From: Lachnospiraceae bacterium
GTDB taxonomy: Bacteria; Bacillota; Clostridia; Lachnospirales; Lachnospiraceae
DNA length: 32,329 nucleotides
Direction of reading: 5' to 3'
Assembly: GCA_910575155.1 (NCBI GenBank)
Contig: CAJTDX010000035.1
Coordinates: 1-32,329 of the forward strand
The notes under the pieces are model-generated. The model ran no database searches. It was given only the letters and a program-made list of their open reading frames with translations, and was not told the origin of the DNA. The number at the start of each line of letters is the position of its first letter. Positions within the stretch are counted from its first letter, which is position 1. Below, one piece after another: positions 3,180 through 17,567 of this stretch. The position numbers were made by a program, and so were the translations under genes.

Positions 3180-4889
3180 TTATTTTCGCGTATTACTGTA
3201 CACCTTCAGGCACAGGTTGCAGTTCTGCGCTTCTTCCGTACTTTCCCAGACATATCCTCTGGAACTGATATAGCCTTTCCCGTCTTTCAAATCCACATCT
3301 TCTGTAAATTCATCCGCCTGGTACTCAATTGCGATCGGATGAACCGAACCAGGCGTTGTGATATGTAAGACCACTGCAAATTCTTCTTCTGGCTCCACCT
3401 GGATTTCCTGATCAAATTTAATGGTATAATAACCTGCATTCGCCAGGCTTCCCTTTGCCACCGAAACCCGCTCCTGTAAAGAGTCTGTATTTTTAAAATC
3501 CTTCACAACAAAAAGTTCATAAGACGTTTCCTTTCCCGTGGCGTAAAATCCTGCTGCCTGCAAAACCTCCCCGGACTGCGCCTGATAGACATTTGCTCCA
3601 TATACACTGTCCTTATTATATCCAAGCTGCCCTACCCAGCCGCACAGATCTGACTGGTAAATATGATCATAATTGTCCGGTTTTTCCACTCCTGTATAAA
3701 CCACATTATGGCTTCCAATGTTAACGTCATAATAACTGACATAGAAAACACCGTTGTCTCCAAATTCCTCTCCCCAGCTGTTCTGACAGAGAAATGCTCC
3801 GTTTCCTTCCACGTCCATATTAAAATTCTCTTTGGGATAATTATCATCCCATCCGATAATGAGAATCTCATGATTGGGCTTTTCCGTTCCGATATAGCAA
3901 TACGAAAATGTCTCCTGATTATAATAAGGAGAGTACACCTGAGGACTGCTGAGCGCACTGTAAATCGAAGTCTGCACTCCCCCATATTTAAACACAGACT
4001 CCTTCACCTGCTCGAAATCTTTGCCCTCAATAAGCTGTATCTCCTGCACATGCCTGACTGCCGTCAGATTCTCCGGCGACTCGCCGTCCCCATATGGGTC
4101 ATCCTTCTCTAACACCGGCCCCTGCCATGCCGTCAGGTACGCCATGCCCATCGTATATTCTCCCCCCTCTGCCTGCTGTATTTGAAAACTGTTCCTGAGG
4201 GACATATGATCTGGCGAAAATTCCTGCTCCTCTTCCGGCAAAAGGACTGATTCCATGGCGGACAGCGCTGCAAATGCCCAGCAGGTACCATAAGAACCCT
4301 GATTTTTCACTCTGGACGTCCGCTGTCTGTCACGCAGGTCATATTGAGGCGGCAGAATACTTGTCTCCTCTGCTTTGTCCACTGCAATTGCCTGATTCTT
4401 CTCAATATTCCACTCGTAATTAAATTTCAGTTTGTCTGCAACCGTTCCTAATGAAACGTAATATTCGCCCTCTTTGCCGGTCAGCGGAGATTGAATGTCT
4501 TCCTGTTCCCCATTTACTGTTACCTTTTTCTCATTTAGCTGAAATGTAATGACATCGGAACGTTTTTCCAGCACCAGCTTCTCCTTATCATAGAAATGCG
4601 CTCCGCAGTTAAAGCTCTCTTCCAGAGTGGAACACGGCACCATAATGTTAAGATTCTGATCCATATAAATACCGTCTTTCTTATTGGTCAGTTTCCTGTG
4701 ATCCACCAGTACGGATAAATCCTTCTCATTGACCGTCCCGGCAATCAGCGGATTCCAGATTTCCTGTTCCAGCCTGGCTCCACGAAAGTGTTTTACTTCC
4801 TCGCTTTTCCCGCCTATATTGGTAAATTTCAGCGCCAACGCCAGGACAAGAACGGCCGACATAACAATATATTTTTTTGAATATCTCAC
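3180..4889 (-). CDS. Secreted/membrane-anchored papain-family (C1A) cysteine peptidase with Cu-amine-oxidase-like N-domain
   Basis: This is a 569-residue exported peptidase. A membrane segment at about 8-21 is followed by a stretch at about 85-170 resembling the copper-amine-oxidase N-terminal stalk domain of clostridial surface proteins (VTVNGE ... YYVSLGTVADKLKFNYEW). The C1A domain begins at PPQYDLRD (180). Catalytic residues are Q197, C203 (YGTCWAF), H340 (NHEILIIGW) and N370 (QNSWGEEFGDNG). The C-terminal ~170 residues look like the lectin-like domain that accompanies these bacterial C1A enzymes. The start codon is GTG with AAAGGGG upstream. It sits 35 bp after the methyltransferase gene. 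A role in surface protein or peptide processing is inferred; the substrate is unknown. Confidence 0.88.
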   Translation of the reverse strand: MRYSKKYIVMSAVLVLALALKFTNIGGKSEEVKHFRGARLEQEIWNPLIAGTVNEKDLSVLVDHRKLTNKKDGIYMDQNLNIMVPCSTLEESFNCGAHFYDKEKLVLEKRSDVITFQLNEKKVTVNGEQEDIQSPLTGKEGEYYVSLGTVADKLKFNYEWNIEKNQAIAVDKAEETSILPPQYDLRDRQRTSRVKNQGSYGTCWAFAALSAMESVLLPEEEQEFSPDHMSLRNSFQIQQAEGGEYTMGMAYLTAWQGPVLEKDDPYGDGESPENLTAVRHVQEIQLIEGKDFEQVKESVFKYGGVQTSIYSALSSPQVYSPYYNQETFSYCYIGTEKPNHEILIIGWDDNYPKENFNMDVEGNGAFLCQNSWGEEFGDNGVFYVSYYDVNIGSHNVVYTGVEKPDNYDHIYQSDLCGWVGQLGYNKDSVYGANVYQAQSGEVLQAAGFYATGKETSYELFVVKDFKNTDSLQERVSVAKGSLANAGYYTIKFDQEIQVEPEEEFAVVLHITTPGSVHPIAIEYQADEFTEDVDLKDGKGYISSRGYVWESTEEAQNCNLCLKVYSNTRK

Positions 4890-9275: not shown

Positions 9276-11504
9276 CTACAATTTTAATTTTGCCAGCGCG
9301 TCGGCAAACGCATTATTTACCGGCTCTTTCGCTTCCTGCTTCATCTTGTTCATATAGCGGGAAACATCTTTCCTGGAAACCCCGCCTCCGCTTTCTTTTT
9401 TTCGTTTTTCAAAAGCAGACAGTTTCTCCCTGTAGCCGCAGACACAGGTAAATCTTCGGTTGTCGCCTTCCCCCACCAGTTCCATTTTCTTATGACACTG
9501 TGGACAGCGGGCATTGGTAATCCTGGATAAAGTTTTGCGATAGCCGCATTCCCGGTCCTGGCACACCAGCATCTTGCCATTTTTATGATTGACTTCCAAC
9601 ATCAGTTTACCGCATTCCGGGCATTTCTTTCCGGTAAGGTTATCATGGCGGTACGTCTTGGAGGACGACTGAATATCTTTGACAATATCCACGGTATAGG
9701 TACGGATTTCAGCCTCAAAATCCTTCTTTTTTGTTTTTCCGGCAGCAATATCTGAAAGTTCCTGTTCCCATTTTGCCGTCAGTTCCGGAGAGGTTAAGCC
9801 CTGCGGCGCCAGATTCAGCACCTGCCGTCCCTTTGATGTCAGATGAATATACTGATCTCGTTTTTCAATCATAAAGCTATTGAACAATTTCTCAATGATA
9901 TCCGCCCTGGTGGCAACAGTTCCCAGACCCCCTGTCTCCCCTAAGGTTTTTTTCAATTTCTGGTCTGTACTCTCCATATATTTAACCGGGTTTTCCATGG
10001 CTGCCAGAAGGGTCGCTTCCGTAAAAGGCAGAGGCGCCCTGGTCTTTCCTTCGGTAAGTTTCCCCTCCATAAATAAAATTTTCTGCCCCTTCACAAAATC
10101 CGGAATACTTCCCGTTATGATTTCTCCCTTTGCCGCCCCGCCTGTCTCCGGGTCTTCGTCGTCAAAAGCTTCCCCGGTATTAATTCCGGCTTCTTTTTGC
10201 AGAAGTTTTATTTCCTGCCAGCCTGGCTGCTCTAAAATCCTGCCCTTTAGGGTAAACCGCTGTCCCTCGCAGACTGCCGTTACTTCCGTCTGCTGATATT
10301 GACAGGGAGGCAGCAGCACGGCAAGGAAACGGGAAACCACAAGCTCATAAATTTTCCGTTCCCCGTACTCTAAATCTTTTATATGAATTCCCTGCTCGGT
10401 AGGAATGATGGCATGGTGGTCTGATACCTTCTTATCATCCACAAAAGATTTATTTCCTTTCACAGACGATTTCAGCAATTTCCCGCAGACAGGCGCATAA
10501 ATGCCGCTGCGGCACGCTCTGAGCCGTTCAGGGATAGTTTCCACAATATCCGCTGTCAGATAGCGGGAGTCCGTTCGGGGATAAGTTAGCGCCTTATGGC
10601 GTTCATACAGGCTTTGCATATAATCTAAGGTCTGTTTTGCAGAAAAACCAAACATCCTGTTTGCATCCTGCTGCAGTGAAGTCAGATCATAGAGCTGGGG
10701 CGCATATGATTTCTGCTGTTTCTTTTTCACCTCTGTGACCACAGCCGTACCGTTCAACACCTGGCTTTGTACTTTCTGAATTTCTTCTCTGGAAAGGGTA
10801 CTGCTGCTGTTCTGGCCGGATTTCCAGATCCACAGAGCTTCCCTGCTCTTCATTTTCAGTCCGTAATATGACTGCGGCTGAAATTTTTTAATCTGTTCTT
10901 CCCGCCTGGCAATAATGGCAAGCGTCGGCGTCTGCACTCTGCCGCAGGAAAGCTGCGCATTATGTTTCACCGTCAGAGCTCTGGTCGCATTTAATCCTAC
11001 CAGCCAGTCGGCTTCGGCGCGGGCAACTGCCGCTTCGTATAATTTCTGGTATTCTTTCGCCTCTCTGAGGCTGGAAAAACCCTGGCGGATCGCCTTATCG
11101 GTAACAGAAGAAATCCACAGACGTTTCATAGGCTTTTTCACACCGGATTTTTTGATAATCCATCTGGCCACCAGTTCTCCTTCTCTTCCCGCATCGGTGG
11201 CAATAATAATCTGTCCGATATCCTTGCGGTACATCTGCTTTTTCACAGTCTGATACTGATGCCCTGTTTTTTTTATCACCTGAATTTCCAGTTGTTCCGG
11301 CAGCATGGGAAGCGTTTCCATTTTCCATTCTTTCCACTGATCTCCATAACTCTCCGGATCTGCCAGTTCCACCAGATGCCCCAGCGCCCAGGTCACTACA
11401 TATTCCCGACCCTCCAGATAACCGTTTCCTCCCTGTTTACATCCCAAAACTCTGGCAATATCCCTGCCCACGCTGGGCTTTTCTGCAATTACTAATGATT
11501 TCAT
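9276..11504 (-). CDS. topB: DNA topoisomerase III (type IA)
   Basis: This 742-residue protein breaks and rejoins one DNA strand, relaxing and decatenating DNA. The TOPRIM domain is at 1-145, with E8 in IAEKPS and acidic residues in TDAGREGE (103-110). The catalytic Tyr is Y308 in LTYPRTDSRYL. The C-terminal region from about 625 has two zinc-ribbon-like cysteine clusters (CPECGKLM ... CQDRECGY and CPQCHKKM ... CVCGY), followed by a basic tail. Length matches Firmicute TopB proteins. It lies 26 bp downstream of a DEDDh exonuclease that carries a related zinc ribbon, so the pair is probably one operon transcribed from 12239-12267. Plasmid or ICE topoisomerases look similar, but no conjugation genes are nearby. 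Confidence 0.95.
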   Translation of the reverse strand: MKSLVIAEKPSVGRDIARVLGCKQGGNGYLEGREYVVTWALGHLVELADPESYGDQWKEWKMETLPMLPEQLEIQVIKKTGHQYQTVKKQMYRKDIGQIIIATDAGREGELVARWIIKKSGVKKPMKRLWISSVTDKAIRQGFSSLREAKEYQKLYEAAVARAEADWLVGLNATRALTVKHNAQLSCGRVQTPTLAIIARREEQIKKFQPQSYYGLKMKSREALWIWKSGQNSSSTLSREEIQKVQSQVLNGTAVVTEVKKKQQKSYAPQLYDLTSLQQDANRMFGFSAKQTLDYMQSLYERHKALTYPRTDSRYLTADIVETIPERLRACRSGIYAPVCGKLLKSSVKGNKSFVDDKKVSDHHAIIPTEQGIHIKDLEYGERKIYELVVSRFLAVLLPPCQYQQTEVTAVCEGQRFTLKGRILEQPGWQEIKLLQKEAGINTGEAFDDEDPETGGAAKGEIITGSIPDFVKGQKILFMEGKLTEGKTRAPLPFTEATLLAAMENPVKYMESTDQKLKKTLGETGGLGTVATRADIIEKLFNSFMIEKRDQYIHLTSKGRQVLNLAPQGLTSPELTAKWEQELSDIAAGKTKKKDFEAEIRTYTVDIVKDIQSSSKTYRHDNLTGKKCPECGKLMLEVNHKNGKMLVCQDRECGYRKTLSRITNARCPQCHKKMELVGEGDNRRFTCVCGYREKLSAFEKRKKESGGGVSRKDVSRYMNKMKQEAKEPVNNAFADALAKLKL

Positions 11505-11530: not shown

Positions 11531-12220
11531 TCATATTTTTCGTGTTCCCCGGCAGCGGGGAAAATCGCTGCATCCATAAAATTCTCCGAATTTTCCGCTG
11601 CGCCTGACCATTTCGGCTCCGCACTTCGGGCACAATATTTGCGGCTGTGTCTTTTGTTTCTGCTCCAGAATTTTCCCCAGTTCCTCATAACATTTCTGAT
11701 TCATAATACAGTCGTTCAAAGCGCGATGGGCGCCTTGCGTACTGATATGAAAATGAGCTGCCACATCTGACAGCTTATGATGGGACAGCTCCGGCAGATA
11801 CCGCCTTGCCATATAAAGTGTATCTATGTAATCATTTTCTATCTGGACGCCCAAAACACGCATTGTTCCCTGATGAATGAAATTCAAATCAAAGGTGTGA
11901 ATGTTATGTCCCACCAGAATGTCGCTCCCCACAAATTCCAGGAAATCCCCCAGAACTTCTTCCAGTTTCGGCGCTTCTTCTACCATGTCATCGGTAATAT
12001 GGTTAACCCTGGAAGCTGCCGGCGGGATATGCATACCCGGATTCACCAATGTTGAAAATTTGTCTGCTGCTTTATGTCCCCGCACCCGGACAGCAGAGAT
12101 CTCTATAATCTCGTCTGTATCCGGACGGACCCCTGTAGTTTCTAAGTCAAAGACCACATAGTCGCTGATATATTGATTCAATCGTTTTCCTTTGTTCCCT
12201 GCCACGGCGTTCGCCCTCAT
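11531..12220 (-). CDS. DEDDh 3'-5' exonuclease with C-terminal topoisomerase-type zinc ribbon
   Basis: This 229-residue protein joins a DnaQ/PolC-epsilon exonuclease domain (about 20-187) to a four-cysteine zinc ribbon. Catalytic residues are D25 and E27 (FDLETTG), D111 (HTFDLNF), H165 (GAHRALND) and D170. The ribbon has C197, C200, C217 and C223 (CPKCG ... GCSDFPRC), the pattern found at the C-terminus of type IA topoisomerases. The exonuclease family removes 3' nucleotides from DNA or RNA. It sits directly upstream of topB, so joint action on single-stranded ends is an attractive inference. The ATG at 12220 has AGGAG only two bases away; GTG at 12202 with GAGGG upstream is an alternative start. 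Confidence 0.88.
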   Translation of the reverse strand: MRANAVAGNKGKRLNQYISDYVVFDLETTGVRPDTDEIIEISAVRVRGHKAADKFSTLVNPGMHIPPAASRVNHITDDMVEEAPKLEEVLGDFLEFVGSDILVGHNIHTFDLNFIHQGTMRVLGVQIENDYIDTLYMARRYLPELSHHKLSDVAAHFHISTQGAHRALNDCIMNQKCYEELGKILEQKQKTQPQILCPKCGAEMVRRSGKFGEFYGCSDFPRCRGTRKI

Positions 12221-12420: not shown

Positions 12421-13113
12421 ATGAAAGAAGAATGTTTACTATGCAGAGCACAGCTTGAATATCTGGAAACAGATGAAGTTATGGAGTGCGCCATATGCCA
12501 TAAAAAAGAAAACAGCAAAACCAGATGCACAAGCGGACATTACATATGTAATGCATGTCATATGGATGGCATGGACGCTGTTATTGGGCTGTGTTTAAAA
12601 GAATCTTCAAAAAACCCATTTGAAATTATAATGAAAATGATGGATCTGTCTTTCTGCCATATGCATGGACCGGAACATCATGTCATGGTCGGTTCTGCTT
12701 TGCTGACTTCATATAAAAATGCCGGAGGCAGCATAGATCTGCATCAGGCGCTCATTGAAATGATGAACAGAGGGAAAAGCGTTCCCGGCGGAGCATGTGG
12801 TTTCTGGGGCGCCTGCGGCGCAGGTATAAGCGCCGGTATGTTTGTATCCATCATTTCAAAATCTACGCCGCTGACTGCGGAACCTTTCGGCCTTTCTAAT
12901 TTAATGACGGCAAAAGCGCTTGAACAAATCGGAACAGTCGGCGGGCCGCGCTGCTGCAAAAGGGACTCCTATCTTTCCCTCCTTGCTGCTATTGATTTTG
13001 TGGCAGACCATTTCAAAGTTAAGATGGAAAAATCAGAAATAGTATGCAGACATGCAGCACAAAATAATCAATGCATTGGAAAACGCTGCCCATTCGCGAA
13101 GGCTGATCATTAA
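12421..13113 (+). CDS. Cys-rich DUF5714-like protein, function unknown
   Basis: This 230-residue protein opens with a zinc-ribbon-like region with paired cysteines (CLLC, CAIC, CNAC, about 5-43). A conserved-looking core follows, with the HGPEHHVMVG segment (about 82-91), the glycine-rich GGACGFWGACGAGISAG stretch (about 123-139), GGPRCCKRDSY and a C-terminal C-x-GKRC motif. The overall pattern matches, from memory, the DUF5714 family found in Clostridia and methanogens; no biochemical function is assigned to it that I know of. At least 15 cysteines, several in pairs, suggest metal or redox chemistry. It is one of the few plus-strand genes here, and its 3' end overlaps the convergent GNAT gene by 4 bp. 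Confidence 0.7.
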   Translation: MKEECLLCRAQLEYLETDEVMECAICHKKENSKTRCTSGHYICNACHMDGMDAVIGLCLKESSKNPFEIIMKMMDLSFCHMHGPEHHVMVGSALLTSYKNAGGSIDLHQALIEMMNRGKSVPGGACGFWGACGAGISAGMFVSIISKSTPLTAEPFGLSNLMTAKALEQIGTVGGPRCCKRDSYLSLLAAIDFVADHFKVKMEKSEIVCRHAAQNNQCIGKRCPFAKADH

Positions 13114-13574
13114 ATATTCTTCATACGTTTCTCCATTACTTCATACACTAATTTTGCATTTCCATCCACTGATAATTCCTGGTGTCTGAGCGTTTTATAT
13201 CCTCTGTGCTCATAGAAACAGGCTGCCGCAAGTGAAGCGTCCAGGTAAATGGTATCGTTATTAAGAGATATCTCTTTTTCAAGACATTGCATAATATAAC
13301 TGCCATATCCTTTGTTCTGGAGATCAGAAACAACAAATAATCTTAAGATATGATTTTTATCGCAGCTTCCTGTTCCCACTAAGCAATCATCTGATAATAA
13401 AACTCTGACCAAACCATTTTCTATATCTGCGGCAATATTTTCCCTTGAATGATGTTCACAAAAAAATTGGACCACCGCCTGCGGATAATATACAGGATAG
13501 ACCGTGTTAATCGTATTCTGTACCAGTTGATAAATCTCTTCAAGGTTTTCTTTTTTTGCTATTTCATATTTCAC
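13110..13574 (-). CDS. GNAT-family N-acetyltransferase, third gene of the ATPase cassette
   Basis: This 154-residue protein has the GNAT fold order. An N-terminal strand-helix region (EENLEEIYQLVQNTIN-like) is followed by the acetyl-CoA-binding segment HILRLFVVSDLQNKGYGSYIMQCLE (about 75-100; the Q/R-x-x-G-x-G/A element is QNKGYG). It ends with the typical ACFYEHRGYKTL segment near 125. The start codon is GTG and overlaps the stop of the TOPRIM-like gene in a 4-bp GTGA, so translation is probably coupled. The acceptor substrate is unknown. GNAT enzymes are frequent as metabolic cargo and as toxins, and the sequence alone does not separate these. Confidence 0.85.
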   Translation of the reverse strand: MKYEIAKKENLEEIYQLVQNTINTVYPVYYPQAVVQFFCEHHSRENIAADIENGLVRVLLSDDCLVGTGSCDKNHILRLFVVSDLQNKGYGSYIMQCLEKEISLNNDTIYLDASLAAACFYEHRGYKTLRHQELSVDGNAKLVYEVMEKRMKNI

Positions 13575-14062
13575 AAACAGACCTCCGTATTAGCCATTTT
13601 AAAAAGTTTCTTCAATTTATCATATCCATTTCTCCCGGATACTTTTGTTTTCTTAGATAAACGCAAAAATGAAATTATTCCATCCAGATCAAACAAAAAC
13701 CAATCCTCTATAGAGTGCCTGGCCTTTATATGAATAACTTCTTGCACTCCATTCTTTTTTAAATCAGCTTCTACTTCATTCCATTCTATCGGAGGTTTGG
13801 GAGATAATTCAAAAACATCTGTATCTCTGCATAAAGCGACAAAAAATTCACATCCTTCTTCATATTTAGGTTTTATGTCTTTTATAAATTTACGTAAAGC
13901 AATGTTTTTAAATCCTCCCACACCTTTGATATTTTTATATTCAATGTTAATATCAAATCTTCCATTTGCCCGTTTTTTTCTGGCGTTTGATATTACATGT
14001 TTATAAAATTCAACCTCTGTATCTCCTTCCACAAACAATACCAGGCACTTACTCACATACAT
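13571..14062 (-). CDS. Small TOPRIM-like protein (OLD/RloB/DUF4276-like), partner of the AAA ATPase
   Basis: About 163 residues from the ATG at 14062. That start lies inside the last codons of the upstream ATPase gene (14-bp overlap), so it is preferred over the longer frame beginning at 14098. The sequence shows a TOPRIM-like set of acidic motifs: LFVEGDTEVEFY near the N-terminus, the D-x-D in ALCRDTDVFE in the middle, and ARHSIEDWFLFD further on. Such small TOPRIM proteins next to AAA ATPases form the nuclease half of OLD-like and other two-gene antiphage systems. Here the pair is followed by a coupled GNAT gene. The exact family is not certain by eye; assignment to TOPRIM is an inference from the motif spacing. 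Confidence 0.7.
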   Translation of the reverse strand: MYVSKCLVLFVEGDTEVEFYKHVISNARKKRANGRFDINIEYKNIKGVGGFKNIALRKFIKDIKPKYEEGCEFFVALCRDTDVFELSPKPPIEWNEVEADLKKNGVQEVIHIKARHSIEDWFLFDLDGIISFLRLSKKTKVSGRNGYDKLKKLFKMANTEVCL

Positions 14063-15335
14063 CACACTCCAGATAATCTTCCCAATTACTTTCTTCATCA
14101 GATAACATTGAAAACAGGTAATCTCCCATGCTCATTTTAAAATCAATGGCATCTTGTTGTAATAATCGCTGACCTGATTTCTTCAATGTATAAAACTTGG
14201 CAATTCCTGATTGCCTGCTTATTCCCACATGTATCCATGACGGATCTAAATAACTTACAATATAAGGAGAATGACTTGTTATTATGATCTTACAATCATC
14301 CAGTAACTGACTCATTATTTGAATATAAGCCTGAAACAGACTTGGATGTACAGAATTCTCTGGTTCCTCGATCGCAATCAATGAAACATTCCTCTCATTC
14401 GCCAGGATAATTCTCGCCAAAATCATAAATACTCGTTTTGCCCCATCTGACATCATTGCAAAATCTATTGGATGTTTCAAATTTTTATCTTTCACAAATA
14501 AAACCTGGATTGTATTTGCTATGATAAATGGAACATCATCTGGTAATTTATCATTGTCTCCGCCATTTAATCTGTATTGCTTTACTATAATATCCTCAAT
14601 ATTGGGAAATAAATCTTTATATACTTCTTTCAGCAGAGCATATTTATTGGGATTTTTCTCTTGTAATTGATAGATTACACGCGGGAGGCTTTCTACATCA
14701 ACAGACAGATCTTCTAAACCTTTTCGAATAATCGGGTCCGGCTGATAAAAACTTTTTGCATCCAGATTATTTTCCATATAAAATCTCATACGGTTCATTT
14801 TTTTGATAAGATCAGCATAAAATATTTCATCATATGCACGCAGTTTATTTACAGCAAGTTCTGTTGACTCAGTATTTATTTTGGATGAACACCTGCCAGT
14901 TTCTGAACTTTTGTATAATGCCTCTTGACTATTTCTCTTAATTAATTGCGTATATTTCTGACCTTTCTCTTCCGGCCTGATTTTCAAATACTCAGACACA
15001 ATCTGCGGTTCCACATTCTCATCGCACTTCCAGGCAAACTCGTAACCATACAGCACACGATATTCTATGCCATCCAATTCTGTTAAAATTTCCATTTCAA
15101 ATTTATAATTTCTACCATACATTGAACTATTAATTGGTATTAAACTCGAATTGGCCATCATATCAGCCTTATCTTCCATCGCAGCTTTCATAAATGTCAA
15201 TCCGAAATCAATTGCTGCAAGTACGTTCGATTTTCCAAAATTATTCAATGACACCAACGCTGTAATGTTATCAAAACCGATTTTTATATTTGAAAGATTC
15301 TTAAATCCATCAATAAAAACTGCCTGTATTTTCAT
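14049..15335 (-). CDS. AAA_15/AAA_21 ATPase (OLD-like/SMC-type), defence-associated family
   Basis: This 428-residue single-polypeptide ABC-type ATPase has a split head domain. Walker A is at 29-37 (SLNNFGKSN), with the first glycine replaced by Ser but GKS intact. An inserted arm region of about 200 residues follows. The signature-like MSDGAKRVFMIL comes next, then Walker B LIAIEEPENSVHP and the switch histidine in IITSHSPYI. This order is that of AAA_15/AAA_21 proteins such as OLD, RloA, AbiLi and AriA. It lacks a fused C-terminal TOPRIM, which instead appears as the next, overlapping gene. Codons are more AT-rich than in flanking housekeeping genes, consistent with transfer. The promoter and repeats are at 15372-15476. 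Confidence 0.85.
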   Translation of the reverse strand: MKIQAVFIDGFKNLSNIKIGFDNITALVSLNNFGKSNVLAAIDFGLTFMKAAMEDKADMMANSSLIPINSSMYGRNYKFEMEILTELDGIEYRVLYGYEFAWKCDENVEPQIVSEYLKIRPEEKGQKYTQLIKRNSQEALYKSSETGRCSSKINTESTELAVNKLRAYDEIFYADLIKKMNRMRFYMENNLDAKSFYQPDPIIRKGLEDLSVDVESLPRVIYQLQEKNPNKYALLKEVYKDLFPNIEDIIVKQYRLNGGDNDKLPDDVPFIIANTIQVLFVKDKNLKHPIDFAMMSDGAKRVFMILARIILANERNVSLIAIEEPENSVHPSLFQAYIQIMSQLLDDCKIIITSHSPYIVSYLDPSWIHVGISRQSGIAKFYTLKKSGQRLLQQDAIDFKMSMGDYLFSMLSDEESNWEDYLECDVCE

Positions 15336-15371
15336 GACAATGCACCCTTCATTTAATAATATTATATTTAT

Positions 15372-15399
15372 ATTATATCAATATTTTTTGAAAACGCAA
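15372..15399 (-). promoter_or_regulatory. Promoter of the ATPase-TOPRIM-GNAT operon
   Basis: On the minus strand the -35 TTGCGT (15399-15394), a 16-bp spacer and a perfect -10 TATAAT (15377-15372) predict a start near 15365, about 30 nt before the ATPase ATG. The -35 lies inside the proximal copy of a 22-bp direct repeat, so a protein bound there would block RNA polymerase. Confidence 0.6.
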
Positions 15400-15476
15400 T
15401 TATTTTTTCGTTTTCTCTTTTATTTTATTTATAATAAAAGAATTATATTCAAACAACGCAATTATTTTTTCGTTTT
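15393..15476. repeat. Perfect 22-bp direct repeat pair in the ATPase operon promoter region
   Basis: The 22 bases starting AACGCAATTATT and ending TTCGTTTT occur at 15393-15414 and again, without mismatch, at 15455-15476. A 40-bp AT-rich spacer separates them and contains a TCTTTTATT/AATAAAAGA inverted repeat. The proximal copy covers the -35 box. Possible readings are a two-site operator, a duplicated promoter segment, or the scar of an inserted element. Confidence 0.85.
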
Positions 15477-15595
15477 TGTATTTATTTGTTTAAAAAATAA
15501 AGCCCCCGCGAATTTACTATTTTTTATTTTAAAATAACCTAAAATTTTGTTCCTCTTAAATTTCTGCTTTTGTCCCGTCTGGGTCATTGGAATTG

Positions 15596-16156
15596 TTAAT
15601 ATCTGTCCCGGTACAAAAGCCTTGCTTTTTCTGTATATTTTTGAACAAATTCGGTTTTCGCATTTGTATATCCATCTCTGTTATACTCATATTCTTTCCA
15701 TAGCTTCAATTTCATTTTCTCATATTCGCCTGCAGTATGGGGATGCCCAATCAGATAATCTCTAAAATACAGTTCGTTGTTATCTCCAATATATCTTAAA
15801 TGTAAATGAAACACCTTTTCGTCAAATCCATTTTCTGTATATCCTTTGTTAAAAGAAATGCGATTGATCTGTTGATCCATACAAATGTAGCCGCTATTTA
15901 AAATCAAATCTTTATAATTTAATAATTGAGACTGTTTTGGAACTTCCACAAGAATATCAATAATCGGTTTTGCCCAAATAAAACCGACCGCCGTACTCCC
16001 AATATGACTTATTCTTACAGCCTGCGGTATTGCTTGTTTCAAAAGTATTTCTTCCTCTGAATACCATTCTCTCCAGTTCGTCTGATTTTCTGTCAAAAAG
16101 ACAGGAAACAACTGCCATAACTCTTTTAAACTCATTTCTGATAATTTCTTATTCAT
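15596..16156 (-). CDS. GrpB/UPF0157-family nucleotidyltransferase-fold protein
   Basis: 186 residues from the ATG at 16156. GAGGG five bases upstream favours this start over the in-frame GTG at 16168. The GrpB family has a nucleotidyltransferase-like fold with the hallmark RISHIGSTAVGFIWAKPIIDILVEV-type segment (about 48-73, numbered from this ATG). The residues after GST and the D of IID correspond to the nucleotidyltransferase G-S ... D-x-D/E region. A second conserved stretch is FHLHLRYIG (about 116-124). Length is normal. The family has no firmly established biochemical role; some members sit beside acetyltransferases or resistance genes. It lies in the AT-rich accessory region but is separated from the ATPase operon by about 200 bp of noncoding sequence. 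Confidence 0.85.
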   Translation of the reverse strand: MNKKLSEMSLKELWQLFPVFLTENQTNWREWYSEEEILLKQAIPQAVRISHIGSTAVGFIWAKPIIDILVEVPKQSQLLNYKDLILNSGYICMDQQINRISFNKGYTENGFDEKVFHLHLRYIGDNNELYFRDYLIGHPHTAGEYEKMKLKLWKEYEYNRDGYTNAKTEFVQKYTEKARLLYRDRY

Positions 16157-16423
16157 TGGATCCCTCACAAACTCCTGACGACCATAATTTTACAGACAAT
16201 TCTCTTATCCCACAGAGCGTCAATCAATCCTCAAAACATTTTTCAAAACAAAATGTGGTAATCACAAAACTGCGGCATATATGCCAGTATATTATACGAA
16301 AGGATTTTAAGATGGACAAGTACATTTCATAGAACTAAGCAGTTACGCATCAACTTTTCCAGGAGTATGTTACGGATTTAACCTGTGTTCAAAAAAATTC
16401 CCTGAAAGTTAACAGCCGTTCAA
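16157..16423. other. Intergenic region with little structure
   Basis: No ORF with a ribosome site is seen between the GrpB-like gene and the XRE promoter. A 12-bp palindrome, GGCATATATGCC (16274-16285), is the only notable motif. It could be an operator, but nothing else supports that. Confidence 0.4.
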
Positions 16424-16452
16424 TTGTTGTAAACACGATCCGGTGTTATAAT
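16424..16452 (+). promoter_or_regulatory. Promoter of the XRE-family regulator gene
   Basis: The -35 TTGTTG (16424-16429), a 17-bp spacer and a perfect -10 TATAAT (16447-16452) lie 47 bp upstream of the ATG. Confidence 0.65.
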
Positions 16453-16499
16453 AAAAACATCAAAATCTTTTGTATTATTTTAACTGAGGAGATCATATT

Positions 16500-17567
16500 A
16501 TGCCTATGAATCTGGTAATTCAGGAAAAGCGAAAAGAATTAGGATTGACGCAGGAGCAGGTAGCTGAATATCTCAATGTTTCAAGCCCTGCCGTCAGTAA
16601 GTGGGAAAAAGGCTCTACAAGCCCGGATCTCTCACTTCTGGCGCCGTTAGCCCGCCTGCTCAAAACAGATCTAAATACCCTGTTCTGTTTTGAGGAAGAT
16701 TTATCACAACAGGAAATCGGGTATTTTTGCAGAGAAATTGCGGAAATTACTCAGAATAATGGAATTGCGTCCGGCTTTGAAATGGCAAAACAAAAAATCC
16801 ATGAATATCCGCATAACGAAACATTACTGCACTGTCTTACCGTTCAGCTTGACGGCCTGCTGACCATATCCGGACTGTCTGAGGAAGAGCTGCGCCCCTA
16901 TAACGCTACGATCAGCCAATGGTATCGCCGGCTTGCAGAGAGTGAAGACAGCAAAATCAGTAACAGCGCAAACTATATGCGGGTATGCAAATTGATCCAT
17001 AACGGCGATTATGATAAAGCGCAGGAAATTTTGGATCTGATGCCAGATAAAGAGGACTTTATCAGCAGCATGGCAGATAAACGCATACTGCAAATTAACA
17101 TCTTTCTGTGTCGGGGAGAAACAGAAGCAGCTATTAAGGAATTGCAGAATGCACTGCTTATGGCTCTTGACAAACTTCAAATGCTGCTCTGCAAAATAAT
17201 TGATGCTGAATTAGCAGACGGTAACATACAGACTGCAAAAAATATCGCGGATAAAACAAGTCAACTGGCCGTACTTTTTGACTTATGGGAATATAATTCC
17301 TTCCTGGCGCCTTTACAGATAGCCGGCGCAGAAAAAAATGCCGGTGAATGTATTGGTCTTCTGCGAAAAATGTTTGCGGCAATGCGCACGCCATGGGACA
17401 TGAGTAATTCTCCATTGTTCTACCGTATTGCCAGAACTTCTGACCCGAAACAAATGCTGCCGGCAATTCTGTCTGAATTAGAACACGACTCCGCATATGC
17501 TTTTCTTCAAAATCATAGGGAATTTAACGCTTTAATTTCTGAATACAAAGCGCTGCTGGAAAAATAA
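16500..17567 (+). CDS. XRE-family transcriptional regulator with C-terminal helical-repeat domain
   Basis: This 355-residue protein has an N-terminal helix-turn-helix of the Cro/C1 type (about 5-62), in which LTQEQVAEYLNVSSPAVSKWEKG is the recognition region. The remaining ~290 residues are all-helical and look TPR-like (for example NGDYDKAQEILDLM, RGETEAAIKELQNALLMALDKLQ, DGNIQTAKNIADKTSQLA). This layout is that of Firmicute HTH regulators sensing a peptide or protein partner. No partner peptide gene is visible beside it. The ribosome site GAGGAG precedes the first ATG; a second in-frame ATG two codons later is a weaker alternative. An imperfect terminator-like structure follows at 17571-17631. 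Confidence 0.85.
   Translation: MPMNLVIQEKRKELGLTQEQVAEYLNVSSPAVSKWEKGSTSPDLSLLAPLARLLKTDLNTLFCFEEDLSQQEIGYFCREIAEITQNNGIASGFEMAKQKIHEYPHNETLLHCLTVQLDGLLTISGLSEEELRPYNATISQWYRRLAESEDSKISNSANYMRVCKLIHNGDYDKAQEILDLMPDKEDFISSMADKRILQINIFLCRGETEAAIKELQNALLMALDKLQMLLCKIIDAELADGNIQTAKNIADKTSQLAVLFDLWEYNSFLAPLQIAGAEKNAGECIGLLRKMFAAMRTPWDMSNSPLFYRIARTSDPKQMLPAILSELEHDSAYAFLQNHREFNALISEYKALLEK

Follow-up and report, generated by a model that had tools for sequence, protein, structure and literature searches.

A probable two-gene anti-phage ATPase-TOPRIM module in a Lachnospiraceae bacterium, with its nuclease gene truncated beside an unrelated acetyltransferase gene

We identified three overlapping genes in a contig of a Lachnospiraceae bacterium (the window, i.e., the whole stretch of DNA analyzed, 32,329 nucleotides; Table 1). 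They probably represent a two-gene anti-phage ATPase-nuclease module of a known type, the nuclease gene of which lost its 3' end beside an unrelated GNAT acetyltransferase gene. The original prediction was a cassette of three coupled genes, and its three ORFs were found where claimed, with overlaps of 14 bp (ATPase and TOPRIM-like genes) and 4 bp (TOPRIM-like and GNAT genes). The AT-rich island that it described was also evident: GC content was 0.31–0.34 in 1-kb intervals of the region 13001–16500 vs. 0.38–0.54 in the remaining intervals. For the middle ORF, an alternative start at position 14098 is possible; most homologs begin at the position equivalent to 14062 or two codons downstream of it.

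Table 1. Features of the ATPase-TOPRIM locus and adjacent DNA in the window.
Feature	Position	Strand	Description
ATPase gene	14049..15335	(-)	OLD/PtuA/AriA-type ABC ATPase; intact ORF of 428 aa
TOPRIM-like (DUF4276/OLD-like) gene	13571..14062	(-)	3'-truncated, 163 aa vs. about 194–216 in intact homologs
GNAT acetyltransferase gene	13110..13574	(-)	154 aa, GTG start; independent gene, put beside the pair by the junction
Junction	13590..13597	(-)	Pairwise alignments to L003 and L004 (TOPRIM) and L060 (GNAT of G001)
Proximal element	15392..15413	(-)	Imperfectly palindromic, over -35; counterparts in 37 related loci
Distal element copy	15454..15475	(-)	62 bp upstream of proximal element; second site at 61–64 bp in 33/38 loci
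Predicted promoter before ATPase gene	-35 TTGCGT 15394–15399; -10 TATAAT 15372–15377	(-)	

Domain searches gave clear assignments for two of the three proteins. The ATPase matched AAA_21 (1.3e-19, 71.8 bits) and AAA_15 (1.7e-19, 71.1 bits), both above the Pfam cut-offs, and the GNAT protein matched Acetyltransf_10 (1.3e-12). Matches of the middle protein were weak and below cut-off (DUF4276, 2.7e-4; OLD-like_TOPRIM, 0.0047). Nevertheless, the E, DxD and ED motif order that had been noted in this protein was confirmed by an alignment of 32 TOPRIM sequences, in which E12, D80, D82 and S117 were invariant and E16, E119 and D120 were at least 90% conserved; these metal-ligand positions were kept in the window's copy. 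The family thus had the OLD-type TOPRIM nuclease ligands E, (E/D), DxD and SxE, and its pattern E, E(+4), DxD, SxE matched the reported metal ligands of TsOLD, E377, D381, D431, D433, S478 and E480 (PMC7049728). In addition, residues 4–195 of the predicted structure of the L003 TOPRIM protein aligned with residues 392–591 of BpOLD. Searching PDB sequences with either the middle protein or its profile yielded nothing relevant, and a Foldseek search with the TOPRIM model gave background-level matches.

The predicted coupling of an OLD-like ABC ATPase to a TOPRIM-like gene in a defense-type unit was well founded, as the pair was conserved and the two genes overlapped by exactly 14 bp in 21 of the 35 loci in which both were placed by script (L090, L091, L093, L094 and L099 were dropped from the pair loci as duplicates). 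No recurrent partner gene was found among the families listed (25 of 30 from PADLOC and 25 of 128 from Pfam; 108 of 199 neighbor genes, 37 pair loci). The ATPase was not found in phage and plasmid collections (tblastn, E≤1e-20), and one TOPRIM relative, L089, was present on viral contigs. The patchy distribution of the pair and its low GC content suggest that it was acquired horizontally.

The pair probably belongs among known AAA-ATPase/OLD-type TOPRIM defense pairs, the nearest models being HEC-01 and AbiL. HEC-01, a PADLOC candidate system, likewise consists of two genes (HEC-01A, an ATPase, and HEC-01B). HEC-01A was the best PADLOC model for the window's ATPase (2.4e-30), whereas TOPRIM matches were weak: one HEC-01B model was detected in 22 of the 32 TOPRIM sequences (E≤0.01), with a best value of 9.5e-8 and 0.012 for the window copy. 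Neither HEC-01 together with PADLOC nor DUF4276 was mentioned in the literature searched. AbiL (AbiLi and AbiLii, Lactococcus) and the AAA:TOPRIM_OLD pairs, as reported (PMC10440598), also combine an ATPase gene with an adjacent gene for a TOPRIM/RloB-like effector. The AbiLi model matched the window's ATPase (2.2e-22) and AbiLii matched 6/32 TOPRIM sequences (best 3e-5), but the sequence relation of the pair to AbiL is weak. Pfam domains in the same 32 sequences were DUF4276 (28), OLD-like_TOPRIM (17) and RloB (6).

Other OLD-related systems differed from the pair. OLD proteins of classes 1 and 2 (TsOLD, BpOLD, GajA) share the TOPRIM metal-ligand pattern and the C-terminal region, but have ATPase and TOPRIM in one chain rather than in two genes. 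PARIS (class 4 OLD; AriA and AriB) is detected by an AAA_15 or AAA_21 ATPase (32 and 27 bits, respectively) and DUF4435 (PF14491) in AriB (PMC9122126). The window's ATPase scored above both thresholds; however, DUF4435 was absent from all 32 TOPRIM sequences (E≤0.01) and the pair is therefore not PARIS. Gabija was also rejected, as the ATPase and TOPRIM are separate genes and no UvrD-like helicase occurred among the scanned neighbors in the window (GrpB, HTH regulator, GNAT, DUF5714, exonuclease and topoisomerase by Pfam). The mode of action of intact homologs most likely resembles that of AbiL and of the AAA:TOPRIM_OLD pairs, which reportedly act as antitoxin:toxin (PMC10440598). In such an abortive-infection module, an SMC/Rad50-like ABC ATPase would restrain the TOPRIM-like nuclease and serve as a sensor; upon infection, the metal-dependent nuclease may cut nucleic acid (perhaps tRNA, which AriB is reported to cleave, PMC12409363), and the cell would be stopped.

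Twin DNA elements located before ATPase-TOPRIM pairs, with no regulator gene in sight, are a new and unexplained feature. Two sites 61–64 bp apart were present in 33 of the 38 loci of the element set, compared to a mean of 1.7 in shuffles, and 26 of the 38 distal matches individually reached p≤0.05; the distal copy at this distance was missing in L019, L022, L030, L035 and L092. The anchor TTGC[GAT][TCA] was picked by script and its presence in 38/38 loci is therefore by construction, and the strict two-arm pattern was observed in 33/38. Outside this set, the strict pattern was absent from L098 (a distant locus, 33% ATPase), L097 and L011 (damaged ATPase 5' ends). Five of six arm positions were complementary in the consensus; covariation of the variable arm positions was not found (C/T-G/A pair in 21/38 loci vs. 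18.4 in shuffles). The original prediction had a single promoter serving all three genes; a promoter consensus scan of positions 12900–16300 found 15 sites vs. 16.8 expected from shuffles, i.e., no excess, and the site before the ATPase gene was not among these matches; this promoter is predicted from comparison between genomes. The exact twin pattern (46-base gap) occurred in 13 viral contigs, but no relative of the ATPase or the TOPRIM was present in the stretches examined, and twin elements alone therefore do not serve to find the pair. No mention of such elements was found in the available text of PMC10440598, which deals with AAA:TOPRIM_OLD pairs.

A bold but possible reading is that the pair represses itself in a sequence-specific manner: the two symmetric elements, which lie about six helical turns apart, would be bound by the ATPase, by the TOPRIM nuclease or by both in complex, and the promoter would be shut. 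No helix-turn-helix gene is present in the cassette, and the infection sensor would then double as the switch of its own expression. Such an arrangement would have persisted in Lachnospiraceae, in other Clostridia and in Succinivibrio, with a weaker form on a viral contig. Nearly as possible is that the elements belong to the promoter architecture and are recognized by a regulator of the host, as the proximal element overlaps the -35/-10 region and neither protein has a helix-turn-helix-type DNA-binding domain according to Pfam. However, the 22-mer (≤3 mismatches) was matched in the window's genome only by the two copies before the ATPase gene, and the element was kept in hosts as distant as Succinivibrio. 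A looser two-arm pattern occurred in one other place of this genome and in ten dispersed palindromes of congener G017, a genome without an ATPase match.

In the window, the TOPRIM-like protein lacked a complete C-terminal region. Intact homologs were 31–53 residues longer, and K159, Y161, K163, G164, L174 and I179, each at least 90% conserved among the 32 sequences, were absent. Pairwise alignments showed that homology to the TOPRIM genes of L003 and L004 stops at approximately 13590, and homology to the region upstream of the GNAT gene of congener G001 begins at approximately 13596, with the crossover falling within a few similar bases. The middle ORF is short because the DNA switches at this junction to the GNAT upstream region; the 3' end was probably lost through short-homology deletion or recombination. 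In BpOLD, K562 of the C-terminal helical domain was reported to be required for processive cleavage, and cleavage was impaired without this domain (PMC6755086). With the conserved C-terminal segment lost, the window's effector is therefore probably inactive, impaired or altered despite the kept metal ligands, which would leave the ATPase largely alone.

Decay of the TOPRIM gene was not confined to the window. The TOPRIM was damaged and the ATPase intact in 6 of 41 judged copies, with the reverse in one (binomial 0.005; post hoc, based on seven loci, several of them from metagenome assemblies, and with most pair loci found via the TOPRIM sequence). Three loci (L026, L029, L036) were not judged due to contig ends; the L011 TOPRIM, open at a contig end, was taken as undamaged, and that of L098, an open frame matching profile positions 44–194, as intact. 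This bias fits the expectation if the TOPRIM is the costly partner, and decay that starts with the TOPRIM would fit a toxic role such as that described for AAA:TOPRIM_OLD pairs in the available text of PMC10440598. It is unlikely that the truncated arrangement is still functional, either as a short TOPRIM subunit with the ATPase or as a protective ATPase alone: the kept metal ligands, the intact ATPase, the six copies of the same kind and the anti-phage phenotype of YbjD, which persists without its TOPRIM domain, are consistent with it, but nearly invariant residues were lost from the window copy, and lesions in the other damaged copies differed in kind and place, as expected for decay.

The GNAT gene proved to be unrelated to the pair. 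When 44 pair loci (one duplicate) were scanned in six frames with a profile built from the window's GNAT and 17 genus relatives, a single weak match was obtained (L035, 9e-6), on the opposite strand and >2 kb away. Omitting L011, L013, L034 and L036, which had too little downstream sequence, from the 43 non-redundant loci, the GNAT gene adjoined none of the other 39 pairs. The strict GNAT coupling of the original prediction is thereby refuted by the very tabulation it had proposed, and no support was found for acetylation as modifier or effector. Among 29 genomes of the genus, GNAT relatives were present in 23 (E≤1e-3) and the ATPase in three (E≤1e-60). In 19 congeners, neither the ATPase nor the TOPRIM was found within 1.5 kb of the best GNAT locus or up to the contig end, and for 10 of these loci larger regions contained none either. 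As for the flanks, the DUF5714 gene was found in 1/29 genomes and the HTH gene in 15/29, and the pair did not adjoin the latter in the 15 other loci read. A separate ribosome-binding site, GGAGGT, lies 6 nt 5' of the GTG of the GNAT gene, and the accessible part of the literature searched on GNAT, the OLD family and anti-phage defense did not tie GNAT to an OLD-TOPRIM pair. The coupling is a recombination scar, the 4-bp overlap resulting from the truncating junction. A genuine three-gene defense system, with GNAT modifying the pair or its target, is highly improbable, as the overlap, the shared direction and the reported proposal of GNATs as DNA-modifying parts of BREX-related BRC systems (PMC12839542) are set against 39 pairs without it, congener relatives located elsewhere and the truncation of the TOPRIM gene at the junction.

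These findings remove a false lead, namely an acetyltransferase component of a split-OLD system, and illustrate how genes joined by chance can mimic an operon. The decay of a TOPRIM effector whose ATPase partner persists, a pattern like that of toxin-antitoxin pairs, is open to experimental test. So is the twin DNA element, which goes with the pair in distant hosts, with no dedicated regulator, and could tell how such defense systems stay silent.

Re-reading of the window confirmed three open reading frames that overlap by 14 bp and 4 bp and lie in AT-rich surroundings. The product of the first contained AAA_21/AAA_15 domains, consistent with an OLD-like ABC ATPase, and a domain search also supported the assignment of the last protein as a GNAT acetyltransferase. 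The middle protein, described as TOPRIM-like in the original prediction, did match DUF4276/OLD-like TOPRIM, but weakly. When it was used as a query against genome contigs, 35 loci were identified, mostly in Lachnospiraceae, 32 of which had the ATPase gene directly upstream; the exceptions were L025, which lacked the ATPase, L029, which begins at a contig end, and L026, in which a contig end leaves just the final codons of the ATPase. ATPase searches, counting the window itself as well as repeats, gave matches in 3/29 genus, 9/397 family and 4/392 order genomes, and a viral contig contributed one further locus. Removal of duplicates left 43 non-redundant copies of the ATPase-TOPRIM pair besides the window.

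Strict coupling of this pair to GNAT, which had been proposed, was not borne out. No GNAT gene was detected beside middle-protein homologues in the 35 loci (tblastn and phmmer). Six-frame translations of 44 loci, with the L035 copy represented twice, were also searched with a profile built from the window's GNAT and 17 of its relatives in the genus; the single match was weak, in L035, on the opposite strand and >2 kb off. Four of the 43 loci (L011, L013, L034 and L036) have too little sequence beyond the TOPRIM gene to be judged, so the tally of GNAT genes adjoining the pair elsewhere stands at 0/39. Among the 29 genus genomes, GNAT relatives occurred in 23 (E≤1e-3) and the ATPase in three (E≤1e-60). 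At the best GNAT locus in 19 of 22 other genus genomes, the pair was absent within 1.5 kb or up to the contig end, and it was absent as well from 10 larger regions around congener GNAT loci. GNAT was rejected as a system component on these counts.

What looked like a three-gene cassette was created by a junction. The middle protein has 163 residues in the window versus about 194–216 in intact homologues, and its last five residues differ from those aligned with them. In DNA alignments, homology to the TOPRIM gene of two related loci (L003/L004) stops near 13590, and alignment of the window with the GNAT upstream region of a congener (G001), including the ribosome-binding site, starts near 13596. 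The two stretches overlap across a few similar bases. The best explanation is that deletion or recombination at short homology put the truncated TOPRIM gene against GNAT, an event whose timing and partner are inferred. The pair belongs to a known kind, and its effector is probably broken in this genome.

Other features of the window include the gene for a DUF5714 protein (12421–13113), which converges on the GNAT gene with a 4-bp overlap and was found in 1/29 genus genomes (E≤1e-20). An RNase_T family exonuclease (11531–12220) that ends in a topoisomerase-type C4 zinc ribbon is encoded immediately upstream of the gene for a type IA topoisomerase (9276–11504). A protein with papain-like cysteine protease, lectin-like and copper-amine-oxidase N-terminal domains is encoded at 3180–4889.

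Gene integrity was judged in 41 of 44 copies including the window; contig ends prevented judging one gene each of L026, L029 and L036. Both genes were open in 32 copies, a damaged TOPRIM gene accompanied an intact ATPase in six (the window, L013, L027, L032, L092 and L095), both were damaged or absent in two (L025 and L097), and the ATPase alone was damaged in one (L011). Of the single-gene losses, 6/7 affected the shorter gene (nominal binomial 0.005, post hoc), a bias that fits the expectation for an effector that is costly. The TOPRIM lesions in L013, L025, L027, L032, L092, L095, L097 and the contig-cut L026 were of several kinds: loss of the 3' end, rearrangement, a frameshift or in-frame deletions, and reduction to a short stump.

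Twin elements upstream of the ATPase gene
Feature	Coordinates	Strand	Description
Proximal element	15392–15413	(-)	22-bp imperfect palindrome
Distal element	15454–15475	(-)	22-bp imperfect palindrome

The twin elements are near-identical and 62 bp apart, and allowing ≤3 mismatches the 22-mer matched the window's genome at these two places only. Counterparts precede the ATPase in 37 related loci, including one gammaproteobacterium and one viral contig. In all 38 upstream regions compared (window and 37 loci), an element anchored on TTGC, the script's anchor, was located at -51 to -82 from the start codon and followed after 15–19 bases by a -10-like hexamer. Its left arm, which the script did not anchor, had G in 38/38, and A in 37 and 38 regions two and three positions further; the strict two-arm pattern was present in 33/38. 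With a leave-one-out matrix, the best second site lay 61–64 bp upstream in 33/38 (200 shuffles: mean 1.7, maximum 6), and in 8/10 representatives below 70% ATPase identity. Both elements were kept in L033 (Succinivibrio), whose ATPase is ≤55% identical to that of any other locus. Counting both strands and without matching for composition, the strict pattern occurred across the 37 loci 36 times in the 220-bp upstream regions versus 17 times elsewhere in 363 kb. No covariation of variable arm positions was found. In a congener (G017; L105 and L109–L113) without an ATPase match, palindromes like AAACGCAA-N7-TTGCGTTT were observed at ten places and are possibly terminators or a repeat family.

Among 108 genes scanned beside the pair, no regulator recurred within the families listed (helix-turn-helix families, ≤3/108); therefore, the simplest reading, an inference, is that a protein of the pair would bind the twin elements. 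It is these elements that are the part of the locus meriting experiment.
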